DNA of 60,000 nt from Bolinopsis microptera (Eukaryota; Ctenophora; Tentaculata; Lobata; Bolinopsidae): positions 436,001 through 496,000 of the forward strand of contig NC_087074.1 in the NCBI RefSeq assembly GCF_026151205.1. Reading direction: 5' to 3'. Position 1 is the stretch's first letter; every line of letters starts with the position of its first letter. The notes under the pieces were generated by a model. The model was not told the DNA's origin. It ran no database searches and saw only the letters and a list, made by a program, of their open reading frames with translations. Position numbers and translations under genes: made by a program. Shown piece after piece: positions 7,986-55,881 of this stretch.

Positions 7986-10284
7986 ATAGTTACATTACAT
8001 ATCCTGAGGTGGGTACTGGGTAGTTACATTACATATCCTGAGGTGGGTACTGGGTAGTTACATTACATATCCTGAGGTGGGTACTGGGTAGTTACATTAC
8101 ATATCCTGAGGTGGGTACTGGGTAGTTACATTACATATCCTGAGGTGGGTACTGGGTAGTTACATTACATATCCTGAGGTGGGTACTGGGTAGTTACATT
8201 ACATATCCTGAGGTGGGTACTGGGTAGTTACATTACATATCCTGAGGTGGGTACTGGGTAGTTACATTACATATCCTGAGGTGGGTACTGGGTAGTTACA
8301 TTACATATCCTGAGGTGGGTACTGGGTAGTTACATTACATATCCTGAGGTGGGTACTGGGTAGTTACATTACATATCCTGAGGTGGGTACTGGGTAGTTA
8401 CATTACATATCCTGAGGTGGGTACTGGGTAGTTACATTACATATCCTGAGGTGGGTACTGGGTAGTTACATTACATATCCTGAGGTGGGTACTGGGTAGT
8501 TACATTACATATCCTGAGGTGGGTACTGGGTAGTTACATTACATATCCTGAGGTGGGTACTGGGTAGTTACATTACATATCCTGAGGTGGGTACTGGGTA
8601 GTTACATTACATATCCTGAGGTGGGTACTGGGTAGTTACATTACATATCCTGAGGTGGGTACTGGGTAGTTACATTACATATCCTGAGGTGGGTACTGGG
8701 TAGTTACATTACATATCCTGAGGTGGGTACTGGGTAGTTACATTACATATCCTGAGGTGGGTACTGGGTAGTTACATTACATATCCTGAGGTGGGTACTG
8801 GGTAGTTACATTACATATCCTGAGGTGGGTACTGGGTAGTTACATTACATATCCTGAGGTGGGTACTGGGTAGTTACATTACATATCCTGAGGTGGGTAC
8901 TGGGTAGTTACATTACATATCCTGAGGTGGGTACTGGGTAGTTACATTACATATCCTGAGGTGGGTACTGGGTAGTTACATTACATATCCTGAGGTGGGT
9001 ACTGGGTAGTTACATTACATATCCTGAGGTGGGTACTGGGTAGTTACATTACATATCCTGAGGTGGGTACTGGGTAGTTACATTACATATCCTGAGGTGG
9101 GTACTGGGTAGTTACATTACATATCCTGAGGTGGGTACTGGGTAGTTACATTACATATCCTGAGGTGGGTACTGGGTAGTTACATTACATATCCTGAGGT
9201 GGGTACTGGGTAGTTACATTACATATCCTGAGGTGGGTACTGGGTAGTTACATTACATATCCTGAGGTGGGTACTGGGTAGTTACATTACATATCCTGAG
9301 GTGGGTACTGGGTAGTTACATTACATATCCTGAGGTGGGTACTGGGTAGTTACATTACATATCCTGAGGTGGGTACTGGGTAGTTACATTACATATCCTG
9401 AGGTGGGTACTGGGTAGTTACATTACATATCCTGAGGTAGGTACTGGGTAGTTACATTACATATCCTGAGGTGGGTACTGGGTAGTTACATTACATATCC
9501 TGAGGTGGGTACTGGGTAGTTACATTACATATCCTGAGGTGGGTACTGGGTAGTTACATTACATATCCTGAGGTGGGTACTGGGTAGTTACATTACATAT
9601 CCTGAGGTGGGTACTGGGTAGTTACATTACATATCCTGAGGTGGGTACTGGGTAGTTACATTACATATCCTGAGGTGGGTACTGGGTAGTTACATTACAT
9701 AACCTGAGGTGGGTACTGGGTAGTTACATTACATATCCTGAGGTGGGTATTGGGTAGTTACATTACATATCCTGAGGTGGGTACTGGGTAGTTACATTAC
9801 ATATCCTGAGGTGGGTACTGGGTAGTTACATTACATATCCTGAGGTGGGTACTGGGTAGTTACATTACATATCCTGAGGTGGGTACTGGGTAGTTACATT
9901 ACATATCCTGAGGTGGGTACTGGGTAGTTACATTACATATCCTGAGGTGGGTACTGGGTAGTTACATTACATATCCTGAGGTGGGTACTGGGTAGTTACA
10001 TTACATATCCTGAGGTGGGTACTGGGTAGTTACATTACATATCCTGAGGTGGGTACTGGGTAGTTACATTACATATCCTGAGGTGGGTACTGGGTAGTTA
10101 CATTACATATCCTGAGGTGGGTACTGGGTAGTTACATTACATATCCTGAGGTGGGTACTGGGTAGTTACATTACATATCCTGAGGTGGGTACTGGGTAGT
10201 TACATTACATATCCTGAGGTGGGTACTGGGTAGTTACATTACATATCCTGAGGTGGGTACTGGGTAGTTACATTACATATCCTG
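7986..10284. repeat. 34-bp minisatellite, about 67 copies, nearly homogeneous
   Basis: The unit is 34 bp ('TAGTTACATTACATATCCTG' plus AGGTGGGTACTGGG). Only a handful of single-base variants were seen across about 2.3 kb (for example near 9439, 9702 and 9749), so the array is young or actively homogenised. Its last unit runs directly into the 53-bp array through the shared core TTACATTACATATCCTG, which resembles the TTACATTTCAGATCCTG acceptor of the exon at 11551. It lies in the presumed last intron of the COMMD-like gene. Confidence 0.97.
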
Positions 10285-11602
10285 GTTAACTTGAAGCTAG
10301 AAGGTGATGATGACGTATTGTTAAATTTCAGATCCTGGTTAACTTGAAGCTAGAGGGTGATGATGACGTATTGTTACATTTCAGATCCTGGTTAACTTGA
10401 AGCTAGAAGGTGATGATGACGTATTGTTACATTTCAGATCCTGGTTAACTTGAAGCTAGAGTGTGATGATGACGTATTGTTACATTTCAGATCCTGGTTA
10501 ACTTGAAGCTAGAGTGTGATGATGACGTATTGTTAAATTTCAGATCCTGGTTAACTTGAAGCTAGAGTGTGATGATGACGTATTGTTAAATTTCAGATCC
10601 TGGTTAACTTGAAGCTAGAGTGTGATGATGACGTATTGTTAAATTTCAGATCCTGGTTAACTTGAAGCTAGAGGGTGATGATGACGTACTGTTACATTTC
10701 AGATCCTGGTTAACTTGAAGCTAGAGGGTGATGATGACGTATTGTTACATTTCAGATCCTGGTTAACTTGAAGCTAGAGGGTGATGATGACGTATTGTTA
10801 CATTTCAGATCCTGGTTAACTTGAAGCTAGAGGGTGATGATGACATATTGTTACATTACAGATCCTGGTTAACTTGAAGCTAGAGGGTGATGATGACGTA
10901 TTGTTAAATTTCAGATCCTGGTTAACTTGAAGCTAGAGGGTGATGATGACATATTGTTAAATTTCAGATCCTGGTTAACTTGAAGCTAGAGTGTGATGAT
11001 GACGTATTGTTACATTTCAGATCCTGGTTAACTTGAAGCTAGAGGGTGATGATGACGTATTGTTACATTTCAGATCCTGGTTAACTTGAAGCTAGAAGGT
11101 GATGATGACGTATTGTTACATTTCAGATCCTGGTTAACTTGAAGCTAGAAGGTGATGATGACGTATTGTTACATTTCAGATCCTGGTTAACTTGAAGCTG
11201 GAAGGTGATGATGACGTATTGTTACATTTCAGATCCTGGTTAACTTGAAGCTAGAGGGTGATGATGACGTATTGTTACATTTCAGATCCTGGTTAACTTG
11301 AAGCTAGAAGGTGATGATGACATACTGTTACATTTCAGATCCTAGTTAACTTGAAGCTAGAGGGTGATGATGACGTATTGTTACATTTCAGATCCTGGTT
11401 AACTTGAAGCTAGAGTGTGATGATGACATACTGTTACATTTCAGATCCTAGTTAACTTGAAGCTAGAGGGTGATGATGACATATTGTTAAATTTCAGATC
11501 CTGGTTAACTTGAAGCTAGAGTGTGATGATGACATACTGTTACATTTCAGATCCTAGTTAACTTGAAGCTAGAGGGTGATGATGACGTATTGTTACATTT
11601 AT
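10281..11602 (+). repeat. 53-bp minisatellite, about 25 copies, built from a splice acceptor plus the start of an exon
   Basis: Each unit holds TTACATTTCAG followed by 'ATCCTGGTTAACTTGAAGCT', AGAGGGTGATGATGACGTATTG. The last unit is the real 5' end of the terminal COMMD-like exon (11551 onward), so the array is a tandem duplication of the intron end plus the first 40-odd bases of coding sequence. The unit joint lies in TTACATTT, which occurs both before the acceptor and inside the exon, suggesting duplication through that short homology. Variants (AAGG/AGGG/GTGTG; GTATTG/ATACTG) are scattered among copies. Confidence 0.95.
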
Positions 11603-11697
11603 CACAACACGAGTTCCACTCTCTGCGACAATCCACTGCAAAGCTTTTGCACGACATGTGTCAATTAAGGGAGAAAAAGTTTATGAACGCCAGCTGA
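11551..11697 (+). CDS. COMMD-family protein, C-terminal exon (partial gene)
   Basis: After the acceptor TTACATTTCAG (ending 11550) an in-frame 48-residue segment runs to a TGA at 11695-11697. It reads ILVNLKLEGDDDVLLHLSQH, EFHSLRQSTAKLLHDMCQL, REKKFMNAS. The pattern of a beta-strand with acidic turn, then F-x2-LR and a helix with hydrophobic spacing and a basic tail, resembles the end of the COMM domain, best the COMMD5-type C-terminus as I recall it. COMMD proteins pair through this domain in the Commander complex, which acts in endosomal recycling. Upstream exons were not identified; the candidates at 3197 and 6281 are not phase-compatible. The whole 5' end of this exon has been copied about 25 times upstream. 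Confidence 0.5.
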   Translation: MLVNLKLEGDDDVLLHLSQHEFHSLRQSTAKLLHDMCQLREKKFMNAS

Positions 11698-12351
11698 GGT
11701 ATAGAAATGTCACATTAGTACATACTGGACACTCTTTTTGCTAAAAACTGATTTTTTGTTTCACAGCTGGAATTTTTTTACCATTGTAACTATATGTTAC
11801 CATGGTAACTGGAATGTCGCCACCATTTTTAATTCGGATTTCTTCTTTGTGTTACTGAATGTTTATTACGTATTCTTATTTCATATTTACAGGTTTTCAG
11901 TAAGGGGTCGTTCAGATATTACGTAATCAGCCAAGGGTAGGGGAGTTTCCAAATGATAACGATAGTGTAATTTTTACAAAAAGCTATGTGTAAAACTGAT
12001 TACAGAGGGGGGAGGGGAGATAACAAATTATCCAAAAAGTGATTACGTAACATGTGAACGACCCCTAACGCTTGTATTGTGTTTTTTGTTATTGATATTT
12101 TTTGTTATTGATTATTGATTCAAAATTATGTACTCAGACTTATTCTGAGGTATTCAGTCGACTGTTTATTTTGCTTTATAATTATGATCGAAAGATAAAA
12201 GGGACCCTACAAACTAGGACCGGTGACCGAACTTTTGAGGGGGTCCCGGACCTCAACCGCCAAACGGTGCCCGCGGGGGAGCCACGCCCATATTTGGTCC
12301 AAATTAGGCCCAATTTAGCCAAATACCCTGAACATACCAAAAACCTAGATT
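11698..12351. other. No recognisable gene
   Basis: Presumed 3' flank of the COMMD-like gene. A partly inverted pair is visible: 'GGGGTCGTTCAGATATTACGTAATCAG' type sequence at about 11905-11932 and 'GTGATTACGTAACATGTGAACGACCCC' type at about 12040-12066, suggesting a small inverted-repeat element of roughly 160 bp. Confidence 0.4.
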
Positions 12352-12579
12352 TCAGGTGCTCACAGCAGAAATCTTAAGAAAACGAATAGTTGTATTTTCA
12401 AAACTCTGTCCCATTTTCAGATGTGAAAAATTCTGAACGCACATTTGACAGATTGGATGAAATTTTTAACCACAAACCAATTAGTTAGTTAATTGATGAT
12501 GGTATGAAACCAAATTGGGGTACTGAGGTCAAAATCTCGAAAAAATATTGGGAAAATCATACTGTTTCCCCTACCTGTC
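12352..12579 (+). repeat. Diverged copy of the 366-bp satellite, cut by an assembly gap
   Basis: This stretch carries the landmarks of the 31-39.7 kb satellite in order: CAGCAGAAATCTTAAGAAAACG, CTGTCCCATTTTCAGATGTG, ACGCACATTTGACAGATTGG and ATGATGGTATGAAACC, with scattered substitutions. It ends at the gap, so more satellite may be hidden there. Confidence 0.9.
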
Positions 12580-12679
12580 NNNNNNNNNNNNNNNNNNNNN
12601 NNNNNNNNNNNNNNNNNNNNNNNNNNNNNNNNNNNNNNNNNNNNNNNNNNNNNNNNNNNNNNNNNNNNNNNNNNNNNNN
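12580..12679. other. Assembly gap (100 N)
   Basis: Exactly 100 N, the usual placeholder for unknown length. It begins inside a satellite unit, so a collapsed array is a plausible content. Confidence 0.99.
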
Positions 12680-12882
12680 TCCAGGGAAGCTGCCGTTCGA
12701 TTCATGGTTGCAACTCCCGCCGCGCTTTGAATATATTTTATCATATCAGATCATGTTAAGCGCGTGCAGCGAGTTTGACTAAGAGGCCTTTCTATCCACA
12801 TAACTTATTCGGTGGCGCGCCTTCCGTGAAATCAGTGAATCAGTCGCTCACAGATGTTCAAGACAACAATATTAGTATAGGG

Positions 12883-13179
12883 GAATGTCGCCCCAAGTTC
12901 TGGTGCAAAATAATGCAAAAGTTAGTTCCTTCCATTAAGGCGAATAAAAACAGAAATAATTATAGATACGTTTTACTGTCCGGAGAACTTCTCCGGACAG
13001 TAAAACGTATCTATAATTATTTCTGTTTGGAAATTGTAAGAATGGACGATCTTCTCCGGGAGAAGATCGTCCAGAGACCAGAGCAGGGCCTTGTTTACAT
13101 AGAAGGCAAGTCAAATGGTACAATTCTGAGAATAAACCGGGGCGACATTGGGCCTTGGGGTGACATTCTTACAATTTCC
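12883..13179. mobile_element. Foldback element with nested inverted repeats and an 81-bp palindrome
   Basis: Three nested symmetries are visible. GAATGTCGCCCCAAG (12883-12897) pairs with its inverse at 13154-13168 with one mismatch. A 40-nt arm at 12948-12987 is followed, after one base, by its exact inverse at 12989-13028. GGAAATTGTAAGAATG (13029-13044) is exactly inverted at 13164-13179. A second hairpin, GGACGATCTTCTCC and its inverse, lies at 13044-13072. The open frames here are only reflections of the palindrome. No transposase is present. Confidence 0.75.
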
Positions 13180-13430
13180 AAACAATTTTTCTAGAAACCT
13201 CCTTGTCCCTCATCCATTCGTATGTGATGGCATGTGCAACTAATAATTCTGATGACAGGCCATAATGCCTCTGCAACGAACTGGATACCACCTCTTAGCT
13301 AATATTAGATTCTTTCGAGTAATTTTACAAGGCCTTAGCATTTACTATATTCTTGTATGGGTTACGTGCGAAACTGCAAAATATTGTAACCCCGCTATTA
13401 TTATTAGCTACCACGTCACAACACTGCACA

Positions 13431-15976: not shown

Positions 15977-22892
<6,916 letters not shown>

Positions 22893-30070: not shown

Positions 30071-30100
30071 TGACCAGTTCTCGATGTCTCAAACCTTACT

Positions 30101-34000: not shown

Positions 34001-37000
34001 ACAGTTTTGGCCGAAATTCTGACCCGCAACCAATTAGTCAGTCAACTATAGATGCCAAATGACACGATTGAGGTGCTGGAAGTTTGATTCGGGTCGGAGG
34101 AAGCTCTCAGCAGAAATCTTAAGAAAACGAAAAGTTGTATTTTCAAAACTCTGTCCCATTTTCAGATGTGAAAATTTCTGAACGCACATTTGACAGATTG
34201 GATGAAATTTTTGCCCACAAACCAATTAGTCAGTTAATTGATGATGGTATGAAACCAAATTGGGGTACTGGAAGTCAAAATCTCGAAAAAAATTGGAAAA
34301 TCATACTGTCCCATACTCTGTCCCATTTTCAGTTTTTGAAGTTGAAACTTCCAGGGTCGAAATTTTACAGTTTTGGCCGAATTTCTGACCCGCAACCAAT
34401 TAGTCAGTCAACTATAGATGCCAAATGACACGATTGAGGTGCTGGAAGTTTGATTCGGGTCGGAGGAAGCTCTCAGCAGAAATCTTAAGAAAACGAAAAG
34501 TTGTATTTTCAAAACTCTGTCCCATTTTCAGATGTGAAAATTTCTGAACGCACATTTGACAGATTGGATGAAATTTTTGCCCACAAACCAATTAGTCGGT
34601 TAATTGATGATGGTATGAAACCAAATTGGGGTACTGGAAGTCAAAATCTCGAAAAAAATTGGAAAATCATACTGTCCCATACTCTGTCCCATTTTCAGTT
34701 TTTGAAGTTGAAACTTCCAGGGTCGAAATTTTACAGTTTTGGCCGAATTTCTGACCCGCAACCAATTAGTCAGTCAACTATAGATGCCAAATGACACGAT
34801 TGAGGTGCTGGAAGTTTGATTCGGGTCGGAGGAAGCTCTCAGCAGAAATCTTAAGAAAACGAAAAGTTGTATTTTCAAAACTCTGTCCCATTTTCAGATG
34901 TGAAAATTTCTGAACGCACATTTGACAGATTGGATGAAATTTTTGCCCACAAACCAATTAGTCAGTTAATTGATGATGGTATGAAACCAAATTGGGGTAC
35001 TGGAAGTCAAAATCTCGAAAAAAATTGGAAAATCATACTGTCCCATACTCTGTCCCATTTTCAGTTTTTGAAGTTATAACTTCCAGGGTCGAAATTTTAC
35101 AGTTTTGGCCGAATTTCTGACCCGCAACCAATTAGTCAGTCAACTATAGATGCCAAATGACACGATTGAGGTGCTGGAAGTTTGATTCGGGTCGGAGGAA
35201 GCTCTCAGCAGAAATCTTAAGAAAACGAAAAGTTGTATTTTCAAAACTCTGTCCCATTTTCAGATGTGAAAATTTCTGAACGCACATTTGACAGATTGGA
35301 TGAAATTTTTGCCCACAAACCAATTAGTCAGTTAATTGATGATGGTATGAAACCAAATTGGGGTACTGGAAGTCAAAATCTCGAAAAAAATTGGAAAATC
35401 ATACTGTCCCATACTCTGTCCCATTTTCAGTTTTTGAAGCTGAAACTTCCAGGGCCGAAATTTTACAGTTTTGGCCGAAATTCTGACCCGCAACCAATTA
35501 GTCAGTCAACTATAGATGCCAAATGACACGATTGAGTTGCTGGAAGTTTGATTCGGGTCGGAGGAAGCTCTCAGCAGAAATCTTAAGAAAACGAAAAGTT
35601 GTATTTTCAAAACTCTGTCCCATTTTCAGATGTGAAAATTTCTGAACGCACATTTGACAGATTGGATGAAATTTTTGCCCACAAACCAATTAGTCGGTAA
35701 ATTGATGATGGTATGAAACCAAATTGGGGTACTGGAAGTCAAAATCTCGAAAAAATATTGGAAAATCATACTGTCCCATACTCTGTCCCATTTTCAGTTT
35801 TTGAAGTTATAACTTCCAGGGTCGAAATTTTACAGTTTTGGCCGAATTTCTGACCCGCAACCAATTAGTCAGTCAACTATAGATGCCAAATGACACGATT
35901 GAGTTGCTGGAAGTTTGATTCGGGTCGGAAGAAGCTCTCAGCAGAAATCTTAAGAAAACGAAAAGTTGTATTTTCAAAACTCTGTCCCATTTTCAGATGT
36001 GAAAATTTCTGAACGCACATTTGACAGATTGGATGAAATTTTTGCCCACAAACCAATTAGTCAGTTAATTGATGATGGTATGAAACCAAATTGGGGTACT
36101 GGAAGTCAAAATCTCGAAAAAAATTGGAAAATCATACTGTCCCATACTCTGTCCCATTTTCAGTTTTTGAAGCTGAAACTTCCAGGGCCGAAATTTTACA
36201 GTTTTGGCCGAAATTCTGACCCGCAACCAATTAGTCAGTCAACTATAGATGCCAAATGACACGATTGAGTTGCTGGAAGTTTGATTCGGGTCGGAGGAAG
36301 CTCTCAGCAGAAATCTTAAGAAAACGAAAAGTTGTATTTTCAAAACTCTGTCCCATTTTCAGATGTGAAAATTTCTGAACGCACATTTGACAGATTGGAT
36401 GAAATTTTTGCCCACAAACCAATTAGTCAGTTAATTGATGATGGTATGAAACCAAATTGGGGTACTGGAAGTCAAAATCTCGAAAAAATATTGGAAAATC
36501 ATACTGTCCCATACTCTGTCCCATTTTCAGTTTTTGAAGTTATAACTTCCAGGGTCGAAATTTTACAGTTTTGGCCGAATTTCTGACCCGCAACCAATTA
36601 GTCAGTCAACTATAGATGCCAAATGACACGATTGAGGTGCTGGAAGTTTGATTCGGGTCGGAGGAAGCTCTCAGCAGAAATCTTAAGAAAACGAAAAGTT
36701 GTATTTTCAAAACTCTGTCCCATTTTCAGATGTGAAAATTTCTGAACGCACATTTGACAGATTGGATGAAATTTTTGCCCACAAACCAATTAGTCAGTTA
36801 ATTGATGATGGTATGAAACCAAATTGGGGTACTGGAAGTCAAAATCTCGAAAAAAATTGGAAAATCATACTGTCCCATACTCTGTCCCATTTTCAGTTTT
36901 TGAAGTTGAAACTTCCAGGGTCGAAATTTTACAGTTTTGGCCGAATTTCTGACCCGCAACCAATTAGTCAGTCAACTATAGATGCCAAATGACACGATTG

Positions 37001-39735
37001 AGGTGCTGGAAGTTTGATTCGGGTCGGAGGAAGCTCTCAGCAGAAATCTTAAGAAAACGAAAAGTTGTATTTTCAAAACTCTGTCCCATTTTCAGATGTG
37101 AAAATTTCTGAACGCACATTTGACAGATTGGATGAAATTTTTGCCCACAAACCAATTAGTCAGTTAATTGATGATGGTATGAAACCAAATTGGGGTACTG
37201 GAAGTCAAAATCTCGAAAAAAATTGGAAAATCATACTGTCCCATACTCTGTCCCATTTTCAGTTTTTGAAGTTGAAACTTCCAGGGTCGAAATTTTACAG
37301 TTTTGGCCGAATTTCTGACCCGCAACCAATTAGTCAGTCAACTATAGATGCCAAATGACACGATTGAGGTGCTGGAAGTTTGATTCGGGTCGGAGGAAGC
37401 TCTCAGCAGAAATCTTAAGAAAACGAAAAGTTGTATTTTCAAAACTCTGTCCCATTTTCAGATGTGAAAATTTCTGAACGCACATTTGACAGATTGGATG
37501 AAATTTTTGCCCACAAACCAATTAGTCGGTTAATTGATGATGGTATGAAACCAAATTGGGGTACTGGAAGTCAAAATCTCGAAAAAAATTGGAAAATCAT
37601 ACTGTCCCATACTCTGTCCCATTTTCAGTTTTTGAAGCTGAAACTTCCAGGGCCGAAATTTTACAGTTTTGGCCGAAATTCTGACCCGCTACCAATTAGT
37701 CAGTCAACTATAGATGCCAAATGACACGATTGAGGTGCTGGAAGTTTGATTCGGGTCGGAGGAAGCTCTCAGCAGAAATCTTAAGAAAACGAAAAGTTGT
37801 ATTTTCAAAACTCTGTCCCATTTTCAGATGTGAAAATTTCTGAACGCACATTTGACAGATTGGATGAAATTTTTGCCCACAAACCAATTAGTCGGTTAAT
37901 TGATGATGGTATGAAACCAAATTGGGGTACTGGAAGTCAAAATCTCGAAAAAAATTGGAAAATCATACTGTCCCATACTCTGTCCCATTTTCAGTTTTTG
38001 AAGTTATAACTTCCAGGGTCGAAATTTTACAGTTTTGGCCTAAATTCTGACCCGCAACCAATTAGTCAGTCAACTATAGATGCCAAATGACACGATTGAG
38101 GTGCTGGAAGTTTGATTCGGGTCGGAGGAAGCTCTCAGCAGAAATCTTAAGAAAACGAAAAGTTGTATTTTCAAAACTCTGTCCCATTTTCAGATGTGAA
38201 AATTTCTGAACGCACATTTGACAGATTGGATGAAATTTTTGCCCACAAACCAATTAGTCAGTTAATTGATGATGGTATGAAACCAAATTGGGGTACTGGA
38301 AGTCAAAATCTCGAAAAAAATTGGAAAATCATACTGTCCCATACTCTGTCCCATTTTCAGTTTTTGAAGCTGAAACTTCCAGGGCCGAAATTTTACAGTT
38401 TTGGCCGAAATTCTGACCCGCTACCAATTAGTCAGTCAACTATAGATGCCAAATGACACGATTGAGGTGCTGGAAGTTTGATTCGGGTCGGAGGAAGCTC
38501 TCAGCAGAAATCTTAAGAAAACGAAAAGTTGTATTTTCAAAACTCTGTCCCATTTTCAGATGTGAAAATTTCTGAACGCACATTTGACAGATTGGATGAA
38601 ATTTTTGCCCACAAACCAATTAGTCAGTTAATTGATGATGGTATGAAACCAAATTGGGGTACTGGAAGTCAAAATCTCGAAAAAAATTGGAAAATCATAC
38701 TGTCCCATACTCTGTCCCATTTTCAGTTTTTGAAGCTGAAACTTCCAGGGTCGAAATTTTACAGTTTTGGCCTAAATTCTGACCCGCAACCAATTAGTCA
38801 GTCAACTATAGATGCCAAATGACACGATTGAGGTGCTGGAAGTTTGATTCGGGTCGGAGGAAGCTCTCAGCAGAAATCTTAAGAAAACGAAAAGTTGTAT
38901 TTTCAAAACTCTGTCCCATTTTCAGATGTGAAAATTTCTGAACGCACATTTGACAGATTGGATGAAATTTTTGCCCACAAACCAATTAGTCAGTTAATTG
39001 ATGATGGTATGAAACCAAATTGGGGTACTGGAAGTCAAAATCTCGAAAAAAATTGGAAAATCATACTGTCCCATACTCTGTCCCATTTTCAGTTTTTGAA
39101 GTTGAAACTTCCAGGGTCGAAATTTTACAGTTTTGGCCGAATTTCTGACCCGCAACCAATTAGTCAGTCAACTATAGATGCCAAATGACACGATTGAGGT
39201 GCTGGAAGTTTGATTCGGGTCGGAGGAAGCTCTCAGCAGAAATCTTAAGAAAACGAAAAGTTGTATTTTCAAAACTCTGTCCCATTTTCAGATGTGAAAA
39301 TTTCTGAACGCACATTTGACAGATTGGATGAAATTTTTGCCCACAAACCAATTAGTCAGTTAATTGATGATGGTATGAAACCAAATTGGGGTACTGGAAG
39401 TCAAAATCTCGAAAAAAATTGGAAAATCATACTGTCCCATACTCTGTCCCATTTTCAGTTTTTGAAGCTGAAACTTCCAGGGCCGAAATTTTACAGTTTT
39501 GGCCGAAATTCTGACCCGCAACCAATTAGTCAGTCAACTATAGATGCCAAATGACACGATTGAGGTGCTGGAAGTTTGATTTGGATCGGAGGAAGCTCTT
39601 AGCAGAAATCTTAAGAAAAAGAAAAGTTGTATTTTCAAAACTTTGTCCCATTTTCAAATGTGAAAATTTCTGAACGCACATTTGACAGATTGGATGAAAT
39701 TTTTGCCCACAAACCAATCAGTCAGTTAATTGATG
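31053..39735 (+). repeat. 366-bp satellite array, about 23.7 copies
   Basis: The unit is 366 bp (some 365 or 367). Landmarks: AACTTCCAGGGTCGAAATTT, ATTAGTCAGTCAACTATAG, GCCAAATGACACGATTGAGG, ATTCGGGTCGGAGGAAGCTC, CTGTCCCATTTTCAGATGTG and TTGATGATGGTATGAAACC. Copies are nearly identical; diagnostic variants are GTTGAAAC/GTTATAAC/GCTGAAAC before the CTTCC motif, GGGTCG/GGGCCG, and GTCAGTTAATTG/GTCGGTTAATTG/GTCGGTAAATTG. The last unit (from about 39580) is more diverged and breaks off at 39735. Each unit holds a roughly 97-codon open frame, but indel variants and stops break it freely, so it is not treated as coding. Confidence 0.98.
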
Positions 39736-40122
39736 ATCCCAGCAAACCCTACTGACTGGTGTATACCTCCAAAAGTAAAATAAATAGAACCTTCCGGTTT
39801 TCAACAAAATTTCCGTCTCGTAAATTTAAAGTTAGCTCCCCAGGAGCCAAATTTGGATTTTGGGCTAAATAAACGATCACAGCTTTTAAACTTTGCAAAG
39901 TAATGTCGTTGTCATGAATACGAGGCTAAATACAGCGTGAGAAAGGTAAACTTGACGTGACGTGCGACGACAAACGTGCTGTTGAAAATCTATCACCTCT
40001 AGCGAGCCCAGCAGGCGGCAAGGTTTTCTGGGCTTGCGGGTGAATATTTTATGTCTCAAATCCCAACCTATTATACATCATTGGAAAGATCTAATTGGTT
40101 TTGGAGTAGTAGTAAGCGTTTC
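39736..40122. other. No recognisable gene
   Basis: Flank of the satellite array. An open frame at 40034-40312 overlaps the inverted-repeat element and has no family features. Confidence 0.5.
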
Positions 40123-45058: not shown

Positions 45059-48000
45059 TCAGGAATCATAATACTTTTTTAACCGCACGTGCCAGGCCAC
45101 GCTTAAACACGCCGCCACAGTCTTGAACTGGTGAATAACGTTCCTGGGTATGAAGTACATGTCATTTGCTCTGAGCCGTATTTTAGCATATTTAACGTTG
45201 CTTTCTCGTAGCTGATTGAGTTTAGCGTCCTCTATCCATATATCACACTGTGTCATGGGCGGCTCGTACAGGTCCAGTTGCAGCTCCTCTGCAAGCTGGT
45301 AAAAGTTGGCTGCATCAAACGCTATGACATCTTTAAGAGAATGAGATTGTTGAGCGTCCCTCGGGGCACCAGGAAACTGAACAGTCTGTAGGAAGGCGGC
45401 AGCAGCAGTGGTTGCAATGGTTTTACCGTCCTCCCAGGAATGGTCAGCATGTGGAGTGGTTCTGTCCGGCACAAGAGTCTCCCTGTTCTTCAGAAGCCTG
45501 TATCCCTTGTGGTTCCTGGAACCCGAGGTTGATTGCAGGAACTGCTCTCCTGGTCTCACCCAGAATATGGGACCATCATTGCTGATAGTAGGGTCCAGAC
45601 CATCGTACCTTGACAAGGAGCCCCAGGGTAGTGTAACTTCAAAGAAAGGGTTGAGTTCCATCAGCTGTATTAGCTCAGGGAACAGTGCACCACTCTCTTC
45701 ACTCTTAGTTCCTACTAAGGATACATGCTGTAGTCCGCCTTCGTGGTAAATACACTGCGAGTGATTGTCCTTTACTTTGTCGTAATACTCGCTGATAGTG
45801 CAGCTCAACACGTCCTTCTTGCCCAGTACCTGGTGTTTAACCTTGAGGCCGGGCTGATTGTCCACTAGGTACTTGAGAACGTTGGGCATGTCTTGGGAGC
45901 CGTTGCTAATAATGCCCATCACATGATCAGCTACTCCGTTAGTTTCTCCGAATGTAACTTCAAAGAAGTAGTCCACTATGAGGTGCTGCTGATGTGTAGT
46001 GAGAGTGTTGAACACGTCCATATTCAGTCTCACTACAGTAGCTCCCCCATCTGGACACGGCTCTACTGAGACACAACACTTAGGATCATCCAGTGTGGGC
46101 ATGACAGGAGTGGGGGTCCCTACTGTTTTAACTGGGCAGCCTGAACAGACTGTGGCATCCTCAGTAGCTTCAGTCTTCACATCCGGTGTCTCCTCAGTAG
46201 CTTCAGTCTTCACAGCCGGTGTCTCCTCAGTAGCTTCTGGTAGGGGGGAAGTTGTTTCCTTATCTTCTGTTGCTGGTTCTTCTTTAACTGCCGGGCAGGA
46301 TTGAGACCGCGAAACTTTTGTTTTTATTTGACCTTGTTGAGACAAAAGTTTGTTGTGAAGAGTCTTCTTAGTGGTGGACATGACAGAATGACCACTTATT
46401 TTCCTGGACTTGGCTGGATGAGAAAGTTTGGGACTTTGAGCAGTTTTTTTGTTTTGTACGGAACTCTCCACCTTAACAATCTCAGTGGGGGGATGAGTGG
46501 GAGAAGATGGGGAAAATGTGATCTGGTGAGGAGGAGACAGTATGCTGGTTTTAACCATTTTCTTTGTCTTGTCCGATTTGGGGGATTCTCCGCTGATCTT
46601 CCTTTTGCGAGATTGTACTTTAATGTAATCTGAGAAGGGTATAGGATAGCCGGGGTGTTGGGGCGGCTGATCGTTCGTAAACTTAAACACAGAGAGATCT
46701 TTATGACTGATCTGGGCGTGTGGGTTCATGTGATGCTTCTCAATCTTCACTACGTTAACTTTGTGGCCATTCATCACGAAAGGAATGGGGCTAGAGTTAA
46801 TGCTGTGGACCACTTTTTGAGGGGGCTTTTTAGCAGAGACAGGAGAGTAGCTATTTTTAGTAACAGGGGATTTGGTTTTCTGATTGTTGGTATTTTTCTG
46901 TGGTGCTTGAACAGGTAGAGGCCTTTTCACGACATTTCTCACTACATTGGTAGGCAAGTCCTTTGATAGAGGTACCCTTTCTTTAGCGGGAACTGGAGAC
47001 TTGGTGATATCTTTAACTTTGTTAGGTTTGTCAGTAGTAACACTATTAGTCATATTATCCAGCTTTGGAGACTTCAGAACTGGACCGGTCATGTGAACAG
47101 GAGATTTGATTTCAGCGACAGGAGATTTGATCCCAGCGACAGGAGATTTGATATTGGAGATGTGAACAGGAGATTTGATCCCAGCAACTGGAGATTTGAT
47201 CCCAGCGACAGGAGATTTGATATTGGAGATGTGAACAGGAGATTTGATCCCAGCAACTGGAGATTTGATCCCAGCGACAGGAGATTTGATCCCAGCGACA
47301 GGAGATTTGATACCAGCGACAGGAGATTTGATCCCAGCGACAGGAGATTTGATCCCAGCGACAGGAGATTTGATCCCAGCGACAGGAGATTTGATATCAG
47401 CAACAGGAGATCTGATCCCAGCAACAGAAGATCTGATAGCATTGGTACCAACAGGGACAGGGGACAGGGAGGCAGAATTTGTAACCGAAACTAAAGAAGG
47501 AGATTCAGGAGTCACTAGCTGAGGCATTACCACAGTAGCTACCGGTTCAGTCAACTCTAAAGTCGACTTATTTTCTACAGCTTCAGCCGTCAACTGAGCT
47601 AATGCTTTTTTCTCAGACAAGGTTGAAATCTCCTGAGAAATGGCTTGTTTGAAAAATGAGAGTTTTCCACGGTATAATTTGGAAGAGGGTGTTGCTATGG
47701 TAACTTGTTCTTCAGATGATTTAGGTGGTGAGTTGGGGATACCTCCATCAGTGTCCAGGATATTAGAGGAGGGACAGGGCACAGATAACGGCATGTCAGT
47801 AATAACATTAGTACTGATGTTACTGTGGCTACTACTAGTAGTTGGGCTGGATATAGGAGCTAATAGTCCAGGAGTGTCACTCATTGTACCAATTGGTGGA
47901 GAAAATACAATTGTAGGTTTAGGGCTGTCACTTATTTCAGCTCTTATTTCAGGAATCCATAAGTCAGATTTCTCAACCTTCATTGGCTCTGTTTTAACAT

Positions 48001-51000
48001 GACGAGAATCCAGTTTATCACGTGACCTATCACTAAATCCACTGCTCGATTCACTAAGCGAGAACTTAATCTCTCCGGAAAGTTTAGTGTCGGAGTGGCA
48101 TGAGGAATGTTCGGGAGAGTGATAAGCAAACTTGTCAAACTCAGGAGAGTGTCCGTTAGAGCAGTTACTAGCTGTAAACTTGAAGGGGTCGTTATCTGAA
48201 TCAAAGCCAGTCTCACTAATGTTATCACTGCGGTCCTTTGATCGGTGCTCTTGTTTACTCAACTGAAAAAAGGACATGTTATCACTACGATCAGGGGGGG
48301 GGGATCTGAATATCAGTTTATTACTACTAGGGCATGGTACTATTACTACTACTACTGTAGTTACTAAGCTAACAGTATCAACTAGCTTCAAAACACTAAA
48401 TAATTCCAACTAAACCTGACGCTGATAAAGGAGCTGAGCAGTAGTTGGTCGGAATGTAGCAGACACAGTTGTGGTAGTGGGTCTAGCACTGTAAACTCCT
48501 CCAGCACATGGCTTGTACTTCCCTTCTTTTGCTAGGTTCAACCCTTCTCTAGACCTGGGTAAAGAGCAGTAGTAGTACTTACCCTTCTCTGAACCTGGGT
48601 AAAGAGCAGTAGTAGTACTTACCCTTCTCTAGACCTGAGTAAAGAGCAGTAGTAGTACTTACCCTTCTCTAGACCTGGGTAAAGAGCAGTAGTAGTACTT
48701 ACCCTTCTCTAGACCTGAGTAAAGAGCAGTAGTAGTACTTACCCTTCTCTAGACCTGAGTAAAAAGCAGTAGTAGTACTTACCCTTCTCTAGACCTGGGT
48801 AAAGAGCAGTAGTAGTACTTACCCTTCTCTAGACCTGGGTAAAGAGCAGTAGTAGTACTTACCCTTCTCTAGACCTGAGTAAAGAGCAGTAGTAGTACTT
48901 ACCCTTCTCTAGACCTGAGTAAAGAGCAGTAGTAGTACTTACCCTTCTCTAGACCTGGGTAAAGAGCAGTAGTAGTACTTACCCTTCTCTAGACCTGAGT
49001 AAAGAGCAGTAGTAGTACTTACCCTTCTCTAGACCTGAGTAAAGAGCAGTAGTAGTACTTACCCTTCTCTAGACCTGGGTAAAGAGCAGTAGTAGTACTT
49101 ACCCTTCTCTAGACCTGGGTAAAGAGCAGTAGTAGTACTTACCCTTCTCTAGACCTGGGTAAAGAGCAGTAGTAGTACTTACCCTTCTCTAGACCTGAGT
49201 AAAAAGCAGTAGTAGTACTTACCCTTCTCTAGACCTGGGTAAAGAGCAGTAGTAGTACTTACCCTTCTCTAGACCTGAGTAAAGAGCAGTAGTAGTACTT
49301 ACCCTTCTCTAGACCTGAGTAAAGAGGAGTAATAGTACTTACCCTTCTCTAGACCTGAGTAAAGAGCAGTAGTAGTACTTACCCTTCTCTAGACCTGAGT
49401 AAAAAGCAGTAGTAGTACTTACCCTTCTCTAGACCTGGGTAAAGAGCAGTAGTAGTACTTACCCTTCTCTAGACCTGAGTAAAGAGCAGTAGTAGTACTT
49501 ACCCTTCTCTAGACCTGAGTAAAGAGGAGTAATAGTACTTACCCTTCTCTAGACCTGAGTAAAGAGCAGTAGTAGTACTTACCCTTCTCTAGACCTGAGT
49601 AAAAAGCAGTAGTAGTACTTACCCTTCTCTAGACCTGGGTAAAGAGCAGTAGTAGTACTTACCCTTCTCTAGACCTGGGTAAAGAGCAGTAGTAGTACTT
49701 ACCCTTCTCTAGACCTGAGTAAAGAGCAGTAGTAGTACTTACCCTTCTCTAGACCTGAGTAAAGAGCAGTAGTAGTACTTACCCTTCTCTAGACCTGGGT
49801 AAAGAGCAGTAGTAGTACTTACCCTTCTCTAGACCTGAGTAAAGAGCAGTAGTAGTACTTACCCTTCTCTAGACCTGAGTAAAGAGCAGTAGTAGTACTT
49901 ACCCTTCTCTAGACCTGGGTAAAGAGCAGTAGTAGTACTTACCCTTCTCTAGACCTGGGTAAAGAGCAGTAGTAGTACTTACCCTTCTCTAGACCTGGGT
50001 AAAGAGCAGTAGTAGTACTTACCCTTCTCTAGACCTGAGTAAAAAGCAGTAGTAGTACTTACCCTTCTCTAGACCTGAGTAAAGAGGAGTAATAGTACTT
50101 ACCCTTCTCTAGACCTGAGTAAAGAGCAGTAGTAGTACTTACCCTTCTCTAGACCTGAGTAAAGAGGAGTAATAGTACTTACCCTTCTCTAGACCTGAGT
50201 AAAGAGCAGTAGTAGTACTTACCCTTCTCTAGACCTGAGTAAAGAGCAGTAGTAGTACTTACCCTTCTCTAGACCTGGGTAAAGAGCAGTAGTAGTACTT
50301 ACCCTTCTCTAGACCTGGGTAAAGAGCAGTAGTAGTACTTACCCTTCTCTAGACCTGGGTAAAGAGCAGTAGTAGTACTTACCCTTCTCTAGACCTGAGT
50401 AAAGAGCAGTAGTAGTACTTACCCTTCTCTAGACCTGGGTAAAGAGCAGTAGTAGTACTTACCCTTCTCTAGACCTGGGTAAAGAGCAGTAGTAGTACTT
50501 ACCCTTCTCTAGACCTGAGTAAAGAGCAGTAGTAGTACTTACCCTTCTCTAGACCTGAGTAAAGAGCAGTAGTAGTACTTACCCTTCTCTAGACCTGAGT
50601 AAAGAGCAGTAGTAGTACTTACCCTTCTCTAGACCTGGGTAAAGAGCAGTAGTAGTACTTACCCTTCTCTAGACCTGAGTAAAGAGCAGTAGTAGTACTT
50701 ACCCTTCTCTAGACCTGGGTAAAGAGCAGTAGTAGTACTTACCCTTCTCTAGACCTGAGTAAAGAGCAGTAGTAGTACTTACCCTTCTCTAGACCTGGGT
50801 AAAGAGCAGTAGTAGTACTTACCCTTCTCTAGACCTGGGTAAAGAGCAGTAGTAGTACTTACCCTTCTCTAGACCTGAGTAAAGAGCAGTAGTAGTACTT
50901 ACCCTTCTCTAGACCTGAGTAAAGAGCAGTAGTAGTACTTACCCTTCTCTAGACCTGAGTAAAGAGCAGTAGTAGTACTTACCCTTCTCTAGACCTGGGT

Positions 51001-54000
51001 AAAGAGCAGTAGTAGTACTTACCCTTCTCTAGACCTGGGTAAAGAGCAGTAGTAGTACTTACCCTTCTCTAGACCTGGGTAAAGAGCAGTAGTAGTACTT
51101 ACCCTTCTCTAGACCTGGGTAAAGAACAGTAGTAGTACTTACCCTTCTCTAGACCTGAGTAAAGAGCAGTAGTAGTACTTACCCTTCTCTAAACCTAAGA
51201 ATATTAACATTGATTAAGAGAGTTAAAGTTACGTACCCAGAGCCAATAAAGCGATATCCTTCAATATTGGGGGGTGAGTAGAGCTTCTTAACCTGAGGGT
51301 GCGCTATTTAGTTACTATCTTAATAAGGGGGGGGGGGGGGGGGGGGGGGGGCTTACGAGACATAATACTTACAATAGAAATCGTATTCAATTTCAAGATT
51401 ATTCAGAGTACTTGCATACAAAATAATATGTATCAATAAGTTTTACAGTAAGTGTTACAGTAAGTGTTACAGTAAGTGTTACAGGAACAGAGTACAGAAA
51501 TCCAAATGAGTTAATAACAGGATTGATTTAAATCTGAAATAAATCTGAACCTCCAAAGGGGGCGGGGGTAACAGAAGGTTACAACTTACAAGGTTACAAA
51601 AAATGTTCAAAAACAGTCCAAGATTTTCAAAATGAATAATTTGTTCATCTAAAATTCTGCGGACCTGACTTTTAAATGATGCTTAGAGCATATCCTAGAA
51701 TGTTTCAGGGTGATTGTTCAAAACTGTCAGAAAGGTAAGAAATTTGACTGTATTTCGGTTAGCGCAATTAAAGTCGCTTGCGCAGTACAGTTACACATGA
51801 GCGCTGCTTTGACCTGCGATAACTTCGAGTAGGAACATATTTTCCATAGATAAAAGCAGCAACTAGATAAACTCCGCTTATAGTACATCATAAAATCAAT
51901 TTCAGAAGATGTAAAAAACCCTGTTAACCAGTAAGTTATACGTAGTGTTAAAGTGTTTTTAGCAGTATGTGTTAGTAAGTTTGACAGTTAATTTACAGAA
52001 AGTGTTACAGAAGTGTTACAGTAATTGTTTACGTATAGTGTTACAGAAATGCGTATACAGTAAGTGTTACAGGAACAGAGTACAGAAATCCAAATGAGTT
52101 AATAACAGGATTGATTTAAATCTGAAATAAATCTGAACCTCCAAAGAGGGCCGGTGGTAACAAGAAGGAGTTATAACTTTACAAGCGTTATAAAAAATTG
52201 ATTTTCAAAATCGAATAACAAATTTTTAAAGGCCTATCTCAAAATCCTATCCTGAAAGTTTCAGGGTGATCGTTCAAAAACTGTCGAAGAAGATAGGAAT
52301 TTATACTTGATTTTCGGTGTGCGCAATTGAAAATCGCTCGCACAATACAATTACACATTCAAGCGCTGACATTTGACAATATTTTTCCATAGGACTAAAA
52401 GCAGCAGATAGATATAACTCCGCTCTATTAGCAACACTCATAAAATCAATTTCGAGAGAGATGTCAAAAAAACCCCCTGCCCCTTAACCAGTAATCTATA
52501 CTAGGATAATCCCAAAATGTTTGTCTGTCTGTCAGTCTGTGTGTAATTTCCGAGCGGCTTAATTAAGAAAACGGTCAAAGTTATGGGACAGGGTTTTTCG
52601 GTATAGTTTACACAAAACTCGAAGCCGATATAAGCAAAGCTTTTCTAAATCGGCCGGCGGTAAGTGGTTTAAATAATGGTTTTGTACCCACTTTTTCTCA
52701 CACTCTCTCTCTCACCCCCTCTCTGACTCTCTCCCCATCACAGCTTTTGTTTATAATTAGGTAATTTGGCAGTAGTACCTAATTTATTTATACTGTTTAT
52801 TGCAATTCAACTGCGATAGTGAAGACCCGGCCATACTATGGCCAGGTTACACTAGTACTTTATATAATACAATATAATATAATACAATATAATATAATAC
52901 AATATAATATAATACAATATAATATAATACAATATATAATACAATATATAATACAATATATAATACAATATATAATACAATATATAATACTAGATATAAT
53001 ACTAGATATAATACTATATATTATAATACTATATATTATAATACTATATATTATAATACTATATATTATAATACTATAACCGCACAGAAAGTGTTGACAT
53101 TTAAAAATGTCTTGTGTTTTACCTCAGCAGTAAGCATATGCGGGCTCTTTATCTTGATCAGTTTCTCCGGTGAGTCGTTGAAGCTGAAGACGGTGTGAGC
53201 TTTCTTGTTCGTTATCTTGCAGTTAACATGAGGAGCTGGGGTCTTGTGGGGCCTATCTGGCTTACTTAGCAGACTGGGGGACAATAGTTCACATGAGGAG
53301 CTGGGGTCTTGTGGGGCCTATCTGGCTTACTTAGCAGACTGGGGGACAATAGTTCACATGAGGAGCTGGGGTCTTGTGGGGCCTATCTGGCTTACTTAGC
53401 AGACTGGGGGACAATAGTTCACATGAGGAGCTGGGGTCTTGTGGGGCCTATCTGGCTTATTTAGCAGACTGGGGGACAATAGTTCACATGAGGAGCTGGG
53501 GTCTTGTGGGGCCTATCTGTCTTACTTAGCAGACTGGGGGACAATAGTTCACATGAGGAGCTGGGGTCTTGTGGGGCCTATCTGGCTCACTTAGCAGACT
53601 GGGGGACAATAGTTCACATGAGGAGCTGGGGTCTTGTGGGGCCTATCTGGCTCACTTAGCAGACTGGGAGACAATAGTTCACATGAGGAGCTGGGGTCTT
53701 GTGGGGCCTATCTGGCTTACTTAGCAGACTGGGGGACAATAGTTCACATGAGGAGCTGGGGTCTTGTGGGGCCTATCTGGCTTACTTAGCAGACTGGGGG
53801 ACAATAGTTCACATGAGGAGCTGGGGTCTTGTGGGGCCTATCTGGCTTACTTAGCAGACTGGGGGACAATAGTTCACATGAGGAGCTGGGGTCTTGTGGG
53901 GCCTATCTGGCTTACTTAGCAGACTGGGGGACAATAGTTCACATGAGGAGCTGGGGTCTTGTGGGGCCTATCTGGCTTACTTAGCAGACTGGGGGACAAT

Positions 54001-55881
54001 AGTTCACATGAGGAGCTGGGGCCTTGTGGGGCCTATCTGGCTTACTTAGCAGACTGGGGGACAATAGTTCACATGAGGAGCTGGGGTCTTGTGGGGCCTA
54101 TCTGTCTTACTTAGCAGACTGGGGGACAATAGTTCACATGAGGAGCTGGGGTCTTGTGGGGCCTATCTGGCTTACTTAGCAGACTGGGGGACAATAGTTC
54201 ACATGAGGAGCTGGGGTCTTGTGGGGCCTATCTGGCTTACTTAGCAGACTGGGGGACAATAGTTCACATGAGGAGCTGGGGTCTTGTGGGGCCTATCTGG
54301 CTTACTTAGCAGACTGGGGGACAATAGTTCACATGAGGAGCTGGGGTCTTGTGGGGCCTATCTGGCTTACTTAGCAGACTGGGGGACAATAGTTCACATG
54401 AGGAGCTGGGGTCTTGTGGGGCCTATCTGTCTTACTTAGCAGACTGGGGGACAATAGTTCACATGAGGAGCTGGGGTCTTGTGGGGCCTATCTGGCTTAC
54501 TTAGCAGACTGGGGGACAATAGTTCACATGAGGAGCTGGGGTCTTGTGGGGCCTATCTGGCTTACTTAGCAGACTGGGGGACAATAGTTCACATGAGGAG
54601 CTGGGGTCTTGTGGGGCCTATCTGTCTTACTTAGCAGACTGGGGGACAATAGTTCACATGAGGAGCTGGGGTCTTGTGGGGCCTATCTGGCTTACTTAGC
54701 AGACTGGGGGACAATAGTTCACATGAGGAGCTGGGGTCTTGTGGGGCCTATCTGGCTTACTTAGCAGACTGGGGGACAATAGTTCACATGAGGAGCTGGG
54801 GCCTTGTGGGGCCTATCTGGCTTACTTAGCAGACTGGGGGACAATAGTTCACATGAGGAGCTGGGGTCTTGTGGGGCCTACCTGTCTTACTTAGCAGACT
54901 GGGGGACAATAGTTCACATGAGGAGCTGGGGTCTTGTGGGGCCTATCTGGCTTACTTAGCAGACTGGGGGACAATAGTTCACATGAGGAGCTGGGGTCTT
55001 GTGGGGCCTATCTGGCTTACTTAGCAGACTGGGGGACAATAGTTCACATGAGGAGCTGGGGTCTTGTGGGGCCTATCTGTCTTACTTAGCAGACTGGGGG
55101 ACAATAGTTCACATGAGGAGCTGGGGTCTTGTGGGGCCTATCTGGCTTACTTAGCAGACTGGGGGACAATAGTTCACATGAGGAGCTGGGGTCTTGTGGG
55201 GCCTATCTGGCTTACTTAGCAGACTGGGGGACAATAGTTCACATGAGGAGCTGGGGTCTTGTGGGGCCTATCTGGCTTACTTAGCAGACTGGGGGACAAT
55301 AGTTCACATGAGGAGCTGGGGTCTTGTGGGGCCTATCTGGCTTACTTAGCAGACTGGGGGACAATAGTTCACATGAGGAGCTGGGGTCTTACTTAGCATA
55401 CTGTGCGATTATTATTAATGAATAGTTGCAGATATTGTTTACAACTAGTACTATGCCAACTAGGTGGTAACTAGGTGCAGTTGTAACTAGGTACAGTGGT
55501 AACTAGATGGTAACTAGGTGCAGTGGTAACTAGGTGCAGTGGTAACTAGATGGTAACTAGGTGCAGTGGTAACTAGGTGCAGTGGTAACTAGGTGCAGTG
55601 GTAACTAGGTACAGTGGTAACTAGGTACAGTGGTAACTAGATGGTAACTAGGTGCAGTGGTAACTAGGTGCAGTGGTAACTAGGTGCAGTTGTAACTAGG
55701 TGCAGTGGTAACTGGTAACTAAATGGTCACTAGAGGGTAAATAGTATTATATTTACAACCCTAACCTGTTGATGGTGAACTTGCAAGTCTCCTTGTAAGA
55801 CTTCTTAGAAAGCTTAGTACCAGCGATACGTTTACAGGCGCCATCCCCGCTCCCGCTGCAGCTATATTCATCTGTTTCCAT
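45059..55881 (-). CDS. RSBN1: RSBN1-type JmjC-like lysine demethylase, five exons
   Basis: Exons in coding order: 55766-55881 (ATG at 55879-55881), 53123-53273, 51237-51292, 48416-48554 and 45059-48262 (stop). All introns are GT-AG and the phases agree, giving about 1221 residues. Exon 2 has 'KAHTVFSFNDSPEKLIKIKS', exon 3 'KKLYSPPNIEGYRFIGSG', exon 4 'REGLNLAKEGKYKP'. After a long disordered region, the C-terminal ~300 residues carry 'LTLPWGS'-like VTLPWGSLSRYDGLDPTISN, 'DGPIFWVRPGEQ', 'LQLDLYEPPMTQCDIWIEDA' and 'YFIPRNVIHQFKTVAACLS', the conserved block of RSBN1/DPY-21 proteins. These are nuclear Fe(II)/2-oxoglutarate oxygenases that remove H4K20 methylation. H1092-x-D1094 (HAD) and H1198 (IHQF) fit the metal triad. 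The start of exon 5 is a phase-based choice; an alternative frame extends to 48409. Confidence 0.9.
47090..47440 (-). repeat. In-frame 21-bp coding repeat (AGIKSPV) in the RSBN1-type gene
   Basis: About fifteen copies of a 21-bp unit encode AGIKSPV, interrupted by two HISNIKSPV variants, inside the disordered region of exon 5. Each carries a KSPV motif, a possible proline-directed kinase site. Unit length is a multiple of three, so the frame is kept. Confidence 0.93.
48556..51198 (-). repeat. 40-bp minisatellite, about 66 copies, built from the RSBN1 exon 4 acceptor and exon start
   Basis: On the coding strand each unit is CTCTTTACCCAG (or ACTCAG), then GTCTAGAGAAGG (12 nt, the start of exon 4), then GTAAGTACTACTACTG. 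Each unit thus has an acceptor, a 12-nt in-phase segment and a consensus donor. The real exon 4 (48554 down) begins with the same GTCTAGAGAAGG but continues with GTTGAAC. The far end (51195) has TTAATATTCTTAG before the exon-like piece, possibly the original acceptor, only 42 nt from the exon 3 donor. Confidence 0.96.
51293..53122. other. RSBN1 intron 2 with internal duplication
   Basis: Holds a 23-base G run near 51328, then two related segments (about 51465-51940 and 52055-52500) sharing AAGTGTTACAGGAACAGAGT and AATGAGTTAATAACAGGATT. The second copy has many single-base insertions. A TA-rich microsatellite follows. No extra exon was recognised. Confidence 0.7.
52855..53078. repeat. AT-rich microsatellite in RSBN1 intron 2
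   Basis: Runs of AATATAATATAATACAATAT shifting to ACAATATATAAT and then ACTATATATTATA-type units. Ends about 45 bp from the exon 2 donor. Confidence 0.95.
53226..55390 (-). repeat. 65-bp minisatellite, about 33 copies, built from the RSBN1 exon 2 acceptor and exon start
   Basis: On the coding strand each unit has TGTCCCCCAG (acceptor) followed by TCTGCTAAGTAAGCCAGATA GGCCCCACAAGACCCCAGCT CCTCATGT, the first 48 nt of exon 2, then GAACTAT. The copy nearest the gene (53273 down) is the real exon, which continues TTAACTGCAAG. Variants are few (GGCTTA/GTCTTA/GGCTCA; GTCTTG/GCCTTG). Confidence 0.96.
55448..55735. repeat. 15-16-bp repeat in RSBN1 intron 1
   Basis: Repeats of GTAACTAGGTGCAGTG with variants GTACAGTG and GTAACTAGATG, about 18 units. 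It sits 30 bp inside the exon 1 donor but, unlike the other RSBN1 arrays, does not include exon sequence. Confidence 0.93.

Follow-up and report, generated by a model that had tools for sequence, protein, structure and literature searches.

Minisatellites carrying splice sites at exon-intron borders of the ctenophore Bolinopsis microptera, with an excess of large arrays there in a blind sample of conserved genes

Six exon-intron borders in or beside a 60,000-nucleotide stretch of Bolinopsis microptera DNA (the window; contig NC_087074.1, here C3, positions 436001-496000) carry minisatellites whose units join the end of a coding exon to the adjoining splice site. In a sample of conserved genes chosen blind to repeats, large arrays lie on splice borders about three times more often than expected by chance. 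The arrays resemble the 'mirages' of lancelets, and they probably began as duplications between short microhomologies, were tolerated at the borders, and then grew or persisted better there. The genome comprises 264,652,675 bases in 232 contigs, and C1-C13 hold 258.07 Mb (97.5%) of it.

Arrays were detected with Tandem Repeats Finder (TRF). The initial annotation had listed five of them in three unrelated genes, each adjoining a splice site, with acceptors and donors both affected and with units made of the coding-exon end plus the adjoining site. All five exist, at coordinates 0-25 bases from those first given, and all five have units of that composition. The three genes are COMMD5, a taxilin gene and a gene of the RSBN1/DPY-21 family. 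A sixth border array (34 base pairs, bp; 7987-10284) had been overlooked, and with it the window border arrays affect three donors and three acceptors. The earlier observation is correct, and more extensive than claimed. The features, in window coordinates, are:

7987..10284, plus strand: 34-bp array, 67.6 copies (TRF), its right end fused to the 53-bp array.
10267..11600, plus strand: 53-bp array, 25.2 copies (TRF); the unit spans the acceptor TTACATTTCAG and the first bases of the last COMMD5 exon.
11551..11697, plus strand: last coding exon of COMMD5 (ILVNLKLEGDDD...MNAS, then stop), with matches to PF07258 and human COMMD5.
18187..20244, minus strand: 46-bp array, about 44 copies, at a taxilin donor; the unit is 25 exon bases plus GTTTGT...
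20220..20348, minus strand: taxilin exon whose 3' end starts the 46-bp array; its intron is 20219-18107.
22257..22465, minus strand: 41-bp array, 5 copies, at a taxilin donor; the unit is 38 exon bases plus GTT.
22428..22598, minus strand: taxilin exon, its 5' end at 22598 set by eye; its intron is 22427-20602.
45059..48409, minus strand: JmjC-bearing open frame of the RSBN1/DPY-21 family, with in-frame arrays of 21 bp (47097-47437) and 33 bp (46158-46237).
48541..51196, minus strand: 40-bp array, 66.4 copies; the unit combines an acceptor (CTCAG or CCCAG, followed by GTCTAGAG) with the donor-like AAGGGTAAGTA.
51237..51292, minus strand: RSBN1-like exon 3, placed by reading frame and GT/AG only; intron 51236-48555 contains the 40-bp array, and exon 4 begins at 48554.
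53123..53273, minus strand: RSBN1-like exon 2, placed by reading frame and GT/AG only; intron 1 is 55765-53274 and exon 1 is 55881-55766.
53221..55390, minus strand: 65-bp array, 33.4 copies; the unit is 12 intron bases (ATTGTCCCCCAG) plus 53 bases of exon 2.

The donor is present in 65 copies of the 34-bp array, and the splice word in 24 copies of the 53-bp array, 44 of the 46-bp, 5 of the 41-bp, 65 of the 40-bp and 33 of the 65-bp array. As in mirages, the unit is an exon end plus intron sequence with its splice site in all six window arrays and in 15 arrays of the blind sample (TRF score at least 100), and both the 5' and the 3' boundaries of introns are affected (10 donors and 5 acceptors among the sample arrays). 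The authentic exon is intact beside the array, as judged by family matches across the junctions in taxilin and COMMD5 and by frame only in the RSBN1-like gene.

The COMMD5 acceptor border lies between 11550 and 11551 on the plus strand. Alone, the last exon matched nothing in Pfam except a weak HEAT; joined to the upstream exon it matches the COMM domain (PF07258, 2e-11), and human COMMD5 aligns without a gap over 63 residues spanning the junction (1.4e-7). The taxilin donor borders (minus strand, 22428/22427 and 20220/20219) belong to joined exons that match PF09728 over 237 residues (5.1e-54); the joined peptide includes, at the front of its second exon, five residues (VTTIQ) that are probably intronic, and the array junctions are unaffected by this. 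The acceptor borders of the RSBN1-like gene (minus strand, 48555/48554 and 53274/53273) are placed by reading frame and GT/AG only. Its exons 1-4 have no match in PDB, NCBIfam gave nothing useful for the frame, and the identity of the gene rests on the downstream open frame, which matches 5uqd (8.9e-69), an entry we take to be Caenorhabditis elegans DPY-21 of the RSBN1 family.

A single COMMD5 intron holds a donor array and an acceptor array that are fused together, and the donor array is itself split. The 34-bp unit, CCTGAG/GTGGGTACTGGG (the slash marks the border), carries the donor of the preceding COMMD5 exon. That exon ends at C3:420653 (CAGCCTGAG/GTAGGTACTGGG) and leads directly into 34-bp copies, which form a second block beginning at the donor (C3:about 420648-421556). 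About 22.4 kb of other DNA separates this block, which ends at 421556, from the one at window 7987-10284. The 34-bp and 53-bp units have GTTACATTnCAnATCCTG in common. The 34-bp unit can be read as 6 bases of exon, then 26 intron-like bases, then the 2 bases that precede the CCTG of the next exon, a composition suggesting that it may have been copied from one complete, very short intron. The 34-bp unit, the 40-bp RSBN1-like unit and the 21-bp unit of locus L042 of the blind sample each combine a donor with an acceptor-like site. Just beyond the last COMMD5 exon, an interspersed repeat of ~165 bp (window about 11895-12060) has the complementary ends AGGGGTCGTTCA...TGAACGACCCCT and resembles a miniature inverted-repeat transposable element; a first look gave 1738 candidates across the genome.

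A genome search with the 46-bp array found a second copy of the taxilin gene 310 kb away on the opposite strand (C3:762300-767700). Over the two stretches compared, it differs from the window by 72 mismatches in 2,893 aligned columns (2.5%), plus insertions and deletions. Both copies have the 46-bp array (~2.15 kb in the second copy, 2.06 kb in the window). The 41-bp array is missing from the second copy, where the exon end is present once (CTCAAG/GTTTGTGG), so that this array differs between close copies as mirages do, with 5 units against 1. Within the single-copy site an exonic and an intronic TGTG lie exactly 41 bp from each other, and this is the longest word repeated at that spacing. The second site appears to be the single-copy precursor and would thus record the birth of one border array, with ends of the slippage or microhomology type; that the single-copy state is ancestral, rather than a collapsed array, is the simpler reading. 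The two taxilin copies may be alleles placed twice or a recent duplication. Other genes also occur twice on one chromosome, 40-310 kb apart and several of them inverted (L010/L011, L021/L022, L024/L025, L027/L028), and these pairs may likewise be alleles placed twice or recent segmental duplications. In genome searches that skipped very common words, the 46-bp unit was found only at the two taxilin copies and the 40-bp unit only in the window. Having no further genomic homes, these two units appear to have been born in place. Copies dispersed at unrelated genes, as expected of an introner or mobile element, were not found for either; the only other unit searched was the 34-bp one.

A scan for border arrays against chance, which the initial annotation had proposed for all introns of the genome, was run on 65 regions. 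The genome was searched with five Pfam families (myosin head, adaptin, cullin, kinesin motor and dynein DHC_N2), and the regions (293,112 bases, 0.11% of the genome, all conserved genes) were picked by Pfam exon matches, blind to repeats. They contain 292 of the 314 exon matches; the 22 unused ones come from single-exon genes or from distant or isolated exons. Junctions were called between profile-adjacent exons with GT/AG matrices. This gave 179 pairs, 167 of which pass a strict filter, and the first 134 junctions give a clear metazoan-like consensus. Under the null, one unit is placed uniformly on the array-collapsed gene, and overlap with part of an exon is permitted. An array was called large if its unit was at least 20 bp, its TRF score at least 300 and its copy number at least 4. 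Thresholds were not preset, and p values are uncorrected. Four loci (L011, L021, L024, L027) that are close copies of others were omitted where stated.

Of the 30 large arrays, ten straddle a splice site where uniform placement predicts 3.34 (p=6.7e-4). The corresponding figures are 9 of 23 against 2.30 for a score of at least 500 and at least 5 copies (p=1.1e-4), 12 of 41 against 4.64 for a score of at least 200 and at least 3 copies (p=9.7e-4), and 15 of 71 against 8.02 for a score of at least 100 (p=0.0089). Over all 151 arrays (score at least 50) there is no clear excess (16 against 11.86, p=0.13). The proposed enrichment therefore stands for large arrays and not for arrays in general. Conditional on each array's own interval, with the four paralogue loci omitted, 8 of 26 large arrays straddle (2.70 expected, p=0.0014). 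Straddling large arrays are also present in intervals longer than 800 bp (3 of 19, 0.89 expected, p=0.054). When the exon overlap required is set between 1 and 12 bases, p values lie between 2.4e-5 and 1.3e-3 (three large-array thresholds; L064 and the four paralogue loci omitted). Small arrays straddle at the chance rate (7 of 109, 7.72 expected), and large and small arrays differ in this respect (9 of 30 against 7 of 109, Fisher p=0.0013; L044 is counted here as small because its best TRF row is 2 copies of 207 bp). Young duplications, with 2-3 copies and at least 95% identity, are also at chance (2 of 21, 1.64 expected). A straddling array with a score of at least 200 is present in 7 of the 167 strict introns.

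Four of the five gene families account for most of the large-array excess. In the first four, 10 of 27 large arrays straddle (3.15 expected, p=3.6e-4). In the dynein loci none of 3 does (0.18 expected), and at a score of at least 100 the count is 3 of 9 (0.95 expected, p=0.056). Locus L064 (25 bp) had at first been scored as a straddler through a border-calling error, its true acceptor lying past the array. With this corrected from 4 of 9 (p=0.0082), and with no large straddler, the dynein set does not by itself constitute a replication.

The exon part of the units is conserved coding sequence and not exonised intron, as seen in taxilin and COMMD5 and, by motif matches, in the kinesins. Kinesin units in the sample spell VFTPDTR (L030) and FIDLAGSER (L047), both of which match known motifs. 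The kinesin gene L034 has 112 copies of a 26-bp unit (oriented 2405-5315) that end at the acceptor TTGTAG/GTA and include 3 exon bases only; at the end of the next exon, a 33-bp donor unit is present 52 times (oriented 5785-7530). GT or AG is kept in nearly all copies of the arrays, the exception being L054, which has lost AG in many copies. In 19 arrays with at least 4 copies, the splice core is less variable than rotated stretches of its own unit (mean 0.0140 against 0.0288, p=0.0135), a contrast inflated by variable unit ends (gaps in the alignment, poly-C in L019). The 40-bp window array (core 0.065, rest 0.007) and L054 oppose the trend. The lower variability of the core hints at constraint. 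Coding-strand GC skew is unbiased (11 of 22 units positive, mean 0.02). GC preference was considered as a cause of the excess and rejected: GC is 0.441 in border units (n=15), 0.379 in interior units (n=56), 0.367 in introns and 0.452 in exons. Interior arrays are barely above intron GC, and arrays therefore do not appear to seek GC.

These observations can be combined in an account that we consider likely, in which the border arrays are mirage-type minisatellites. A short tandem duplication would arise between two chance microhomologies, one exonic and one intronic, as at the taxilin 41-bp site and presumably elsewhere. The duplication would be tolerated because the outermost copy leaves the exon complete, with its own splice site; through use of that site a correct message would still be possible whatever the unit length. 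Coding intactness beside the arrays is visible in the sequence. Slippage or unequal exchange would then expand the duplication to dozens of copies. Border arrays would finally grow larger or persist longer than arrays in intron interiors, probably because the border segment is protected from deletion, which would preserve the seed as sequence in intron interiors comes and goes. This last step fits an excess that is confined to large arrays. None of the six window border units (34, 53, 46, 41, 40 and 65 bp) is divisible by 3, whereas the units of both arrays within the RSBN1-like open frame, at 21 and 33 bp, are; this outcome would be expected if filtering for frame acts only on copies that are translated.

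Several points weigh against this account. Use of the outermost site is assumed, from DNA alone, and only one birth has been captured. Among the 19 arrays of the larger set that have at least 4 copies, 4 have a unit divisible by 3, which is not clearly less than one third and makes the frame argument weak. Mean copy identity is 94.8% in large border arrays (n=10) and 92.4% in interior ones (n=19), so that border arrays are not shown to be older. Array edges are also in excess 0-30 bp inside introns (35 against about 14 of 151), with 17 against 7.2 in the first 15 bp and 18 against 7.2 from 15 to 30 bp, and they are depleted at 60-100 bp (6 against 14.6); these counts precede the correction of L064. 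Tolerance of straddling alone is therefore an insufficient explanation. Arrays that end 17-28 bp before the acceptor, just upstream of the polypyrimidine tract, are found in L015, L021, L022, L034 and L040, and some of these edges belong to L021 and L022, a pair of close copies of the same gene.

The edge clustering and the persistence of the large-array excess given intron length could point instead to duplications that begin at splice sites through transcription or splicing, by way of a paused polymerase, an R-loop or repair templated by pre-mRNA. The initial annotation had described consistent initiation at the junction and had offered an RNA-templated or R-loop-associated origin as an example of a mechanism; neither is borne out. 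Young and small arrays straddle at chance, although the young set is small and leaves room for a twofold birth bias. The coding strand has no GC-skew sign, the units include unspliced intron sequence, and the captured taxilin site looks like a plain duplication between 4-bp words. Such an origin is unlikely, and as a cause of the large-array excess it is less likely than growth or persistence. It could also be argued that there is nothing to explain, if introns were so short that a random duplication of 40-60 bp would often overlap an exon. In the window introns, a unit placed at random would straddle a border with a probability of 0.31 for the 46-bp array (a rough value, the collapsed length being taken from a 138-bp TRF row), 0.04 for the 41-bp, 0.59 for the 40-bp and 0.42 for the 65-bp array; the 151 arrays together and the large dynein arrays show no clear excess, and several thresholds were viewed jointly. 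The null, however, already uses array-collapsed intron lengths and still leaves 8 straddlers among 26 large arrays, straddlers also occur in the intervals longer than 800 bp, and the p values stay low for minimum exon overlaps of 1 to 12 bases. We therefore regard an edge effect by itself as very unlikely.

Selection for spare splice sites, also raised in the initial annotation, would retain additional copies that protect or tune splicing. The less variable splice core and the near invariance of GT or AG in all but one array are hints in its favor, and that much of the suggestion survives. The 40-bp window array behaves in the opposite way, L054 has lost its AG in many copies, unit-end variability inflates the comparison, homogenization by itself keeps copies alike, and use of inner sites would shift the frame for most units. 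We consider this explanation highly improbable. A more far-reaching version of the growth or persistence account is conceivable but somewhat doubtful: duplications would arise everywhere, and those carrying splice sites would be selectively amplified or protected, so that about one third of large genic arrays would be splice-site arrays and units with two sites could act as trains of mini-introns. If so, the two-site units (34-bp COMMD5, 40-bp RSBN1-like and 21-bp L042) could steadily supply new splice sites and introns in a lineage close to the root of the animal tree.

The remainder of the window has features of other kinds. A 366-bp satellite occupies 31053-39737 (23.7 copies, 98% identity, TRF). 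Near-identical open frames at 6603-6845 (plus strand) and 16505-16726 (minus strand) indicate a dispersed element. An open frame of 568 amino acids (28382-30088, minus strand) has no Pfam match and contains an in-frame 45-bp array at 29208-29342. Purine-rich fields of GAG repeats lie at 56575-58644 and 59871-60000, and a 14-bp array continues past the window end. Pfam gave no match for four long open frames of the window, and Rfam gave none anywhere in it.

Arrays of this structure were already known, although the initial annotation took the pattern to be unfamiliar; what is new is the ctenophore lineage, the blind estimate of frequency and the captured single-copy site. In the literature available to us, mostly outside subscription journals and in part only, no ctenophore border minisatellites and no test of frequency against chance were found. 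Their presence in a ctenophore as well as in lancelets suggests that they arise in animals only distantly related to each other. Genes that offer tens of identical donors or acceptors, yet must be joined at one exact place, lend themselves naturally to testing how the spliceosome selects among equivalent sites. The size-dependent excess separates birth from persistence, both of which can now be tested genome-wide.

In lancelets, mirages were described one gene at a time, in Adh3 and the globins BflGb6 and BflGb9. They resemble minisatellites, duplicate the intron-exon boundary at either end of an intron, have many copies with AG/GT signals and vary in length between haplotypes. As judged by RT-PCR (reverse transcription-polymerase chain reaction), regular splicing was unaffected; mirages were called possibly general, their mechanism unclear, and they were proposed as a route to new introns (PMC3087553). 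Similar mirages were reported in lancelet PGBD5 and troponin C (TnC) (PMC3902484). The arrays described here likewise duplicate exon-intron boundaries in tandem at the 5' and 3' sides. Unit lengths in lancelets are 10-72 bp for Adh3 and 150-160 bp for the globins, and BflGb6 carries 3 or 6 units; here there are up to 66 copies at a window border and up to 52 in the sample, or 112 if a unit reaching just 3 bases into the exon is counted. In lancelets RT-PCR served to check normal splicing, whereas the present arrays are known from DNA. In human IFI6 (6-16), a minisatellite at an exon border supplies multiple splice donors (PMC4526556). Its units carry donors, as here, but it concerns one gene and the donor side, with downstream units serving as alternative donors, whereas the present arrays affect several genes on both sides with predicted sites. 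Repeats at human exon-intron boundaries have also been tied to novel introns (PMC2812944). A potato RdRp gene gained an intron by a tandem duplication that crossed the border, under the Rogers model, with signals inherited from the parent border (PMC4974935). Duplication across the intron-exon boundary is common to both cases; the intron-gain model makes a new intron, whereas the arrays described here are seen as enlarging existing ones, and the 34-bp COMMD5 and 40-bp RSBN1-like units, each with a donor and an acceptor-like site, come closest to that model.

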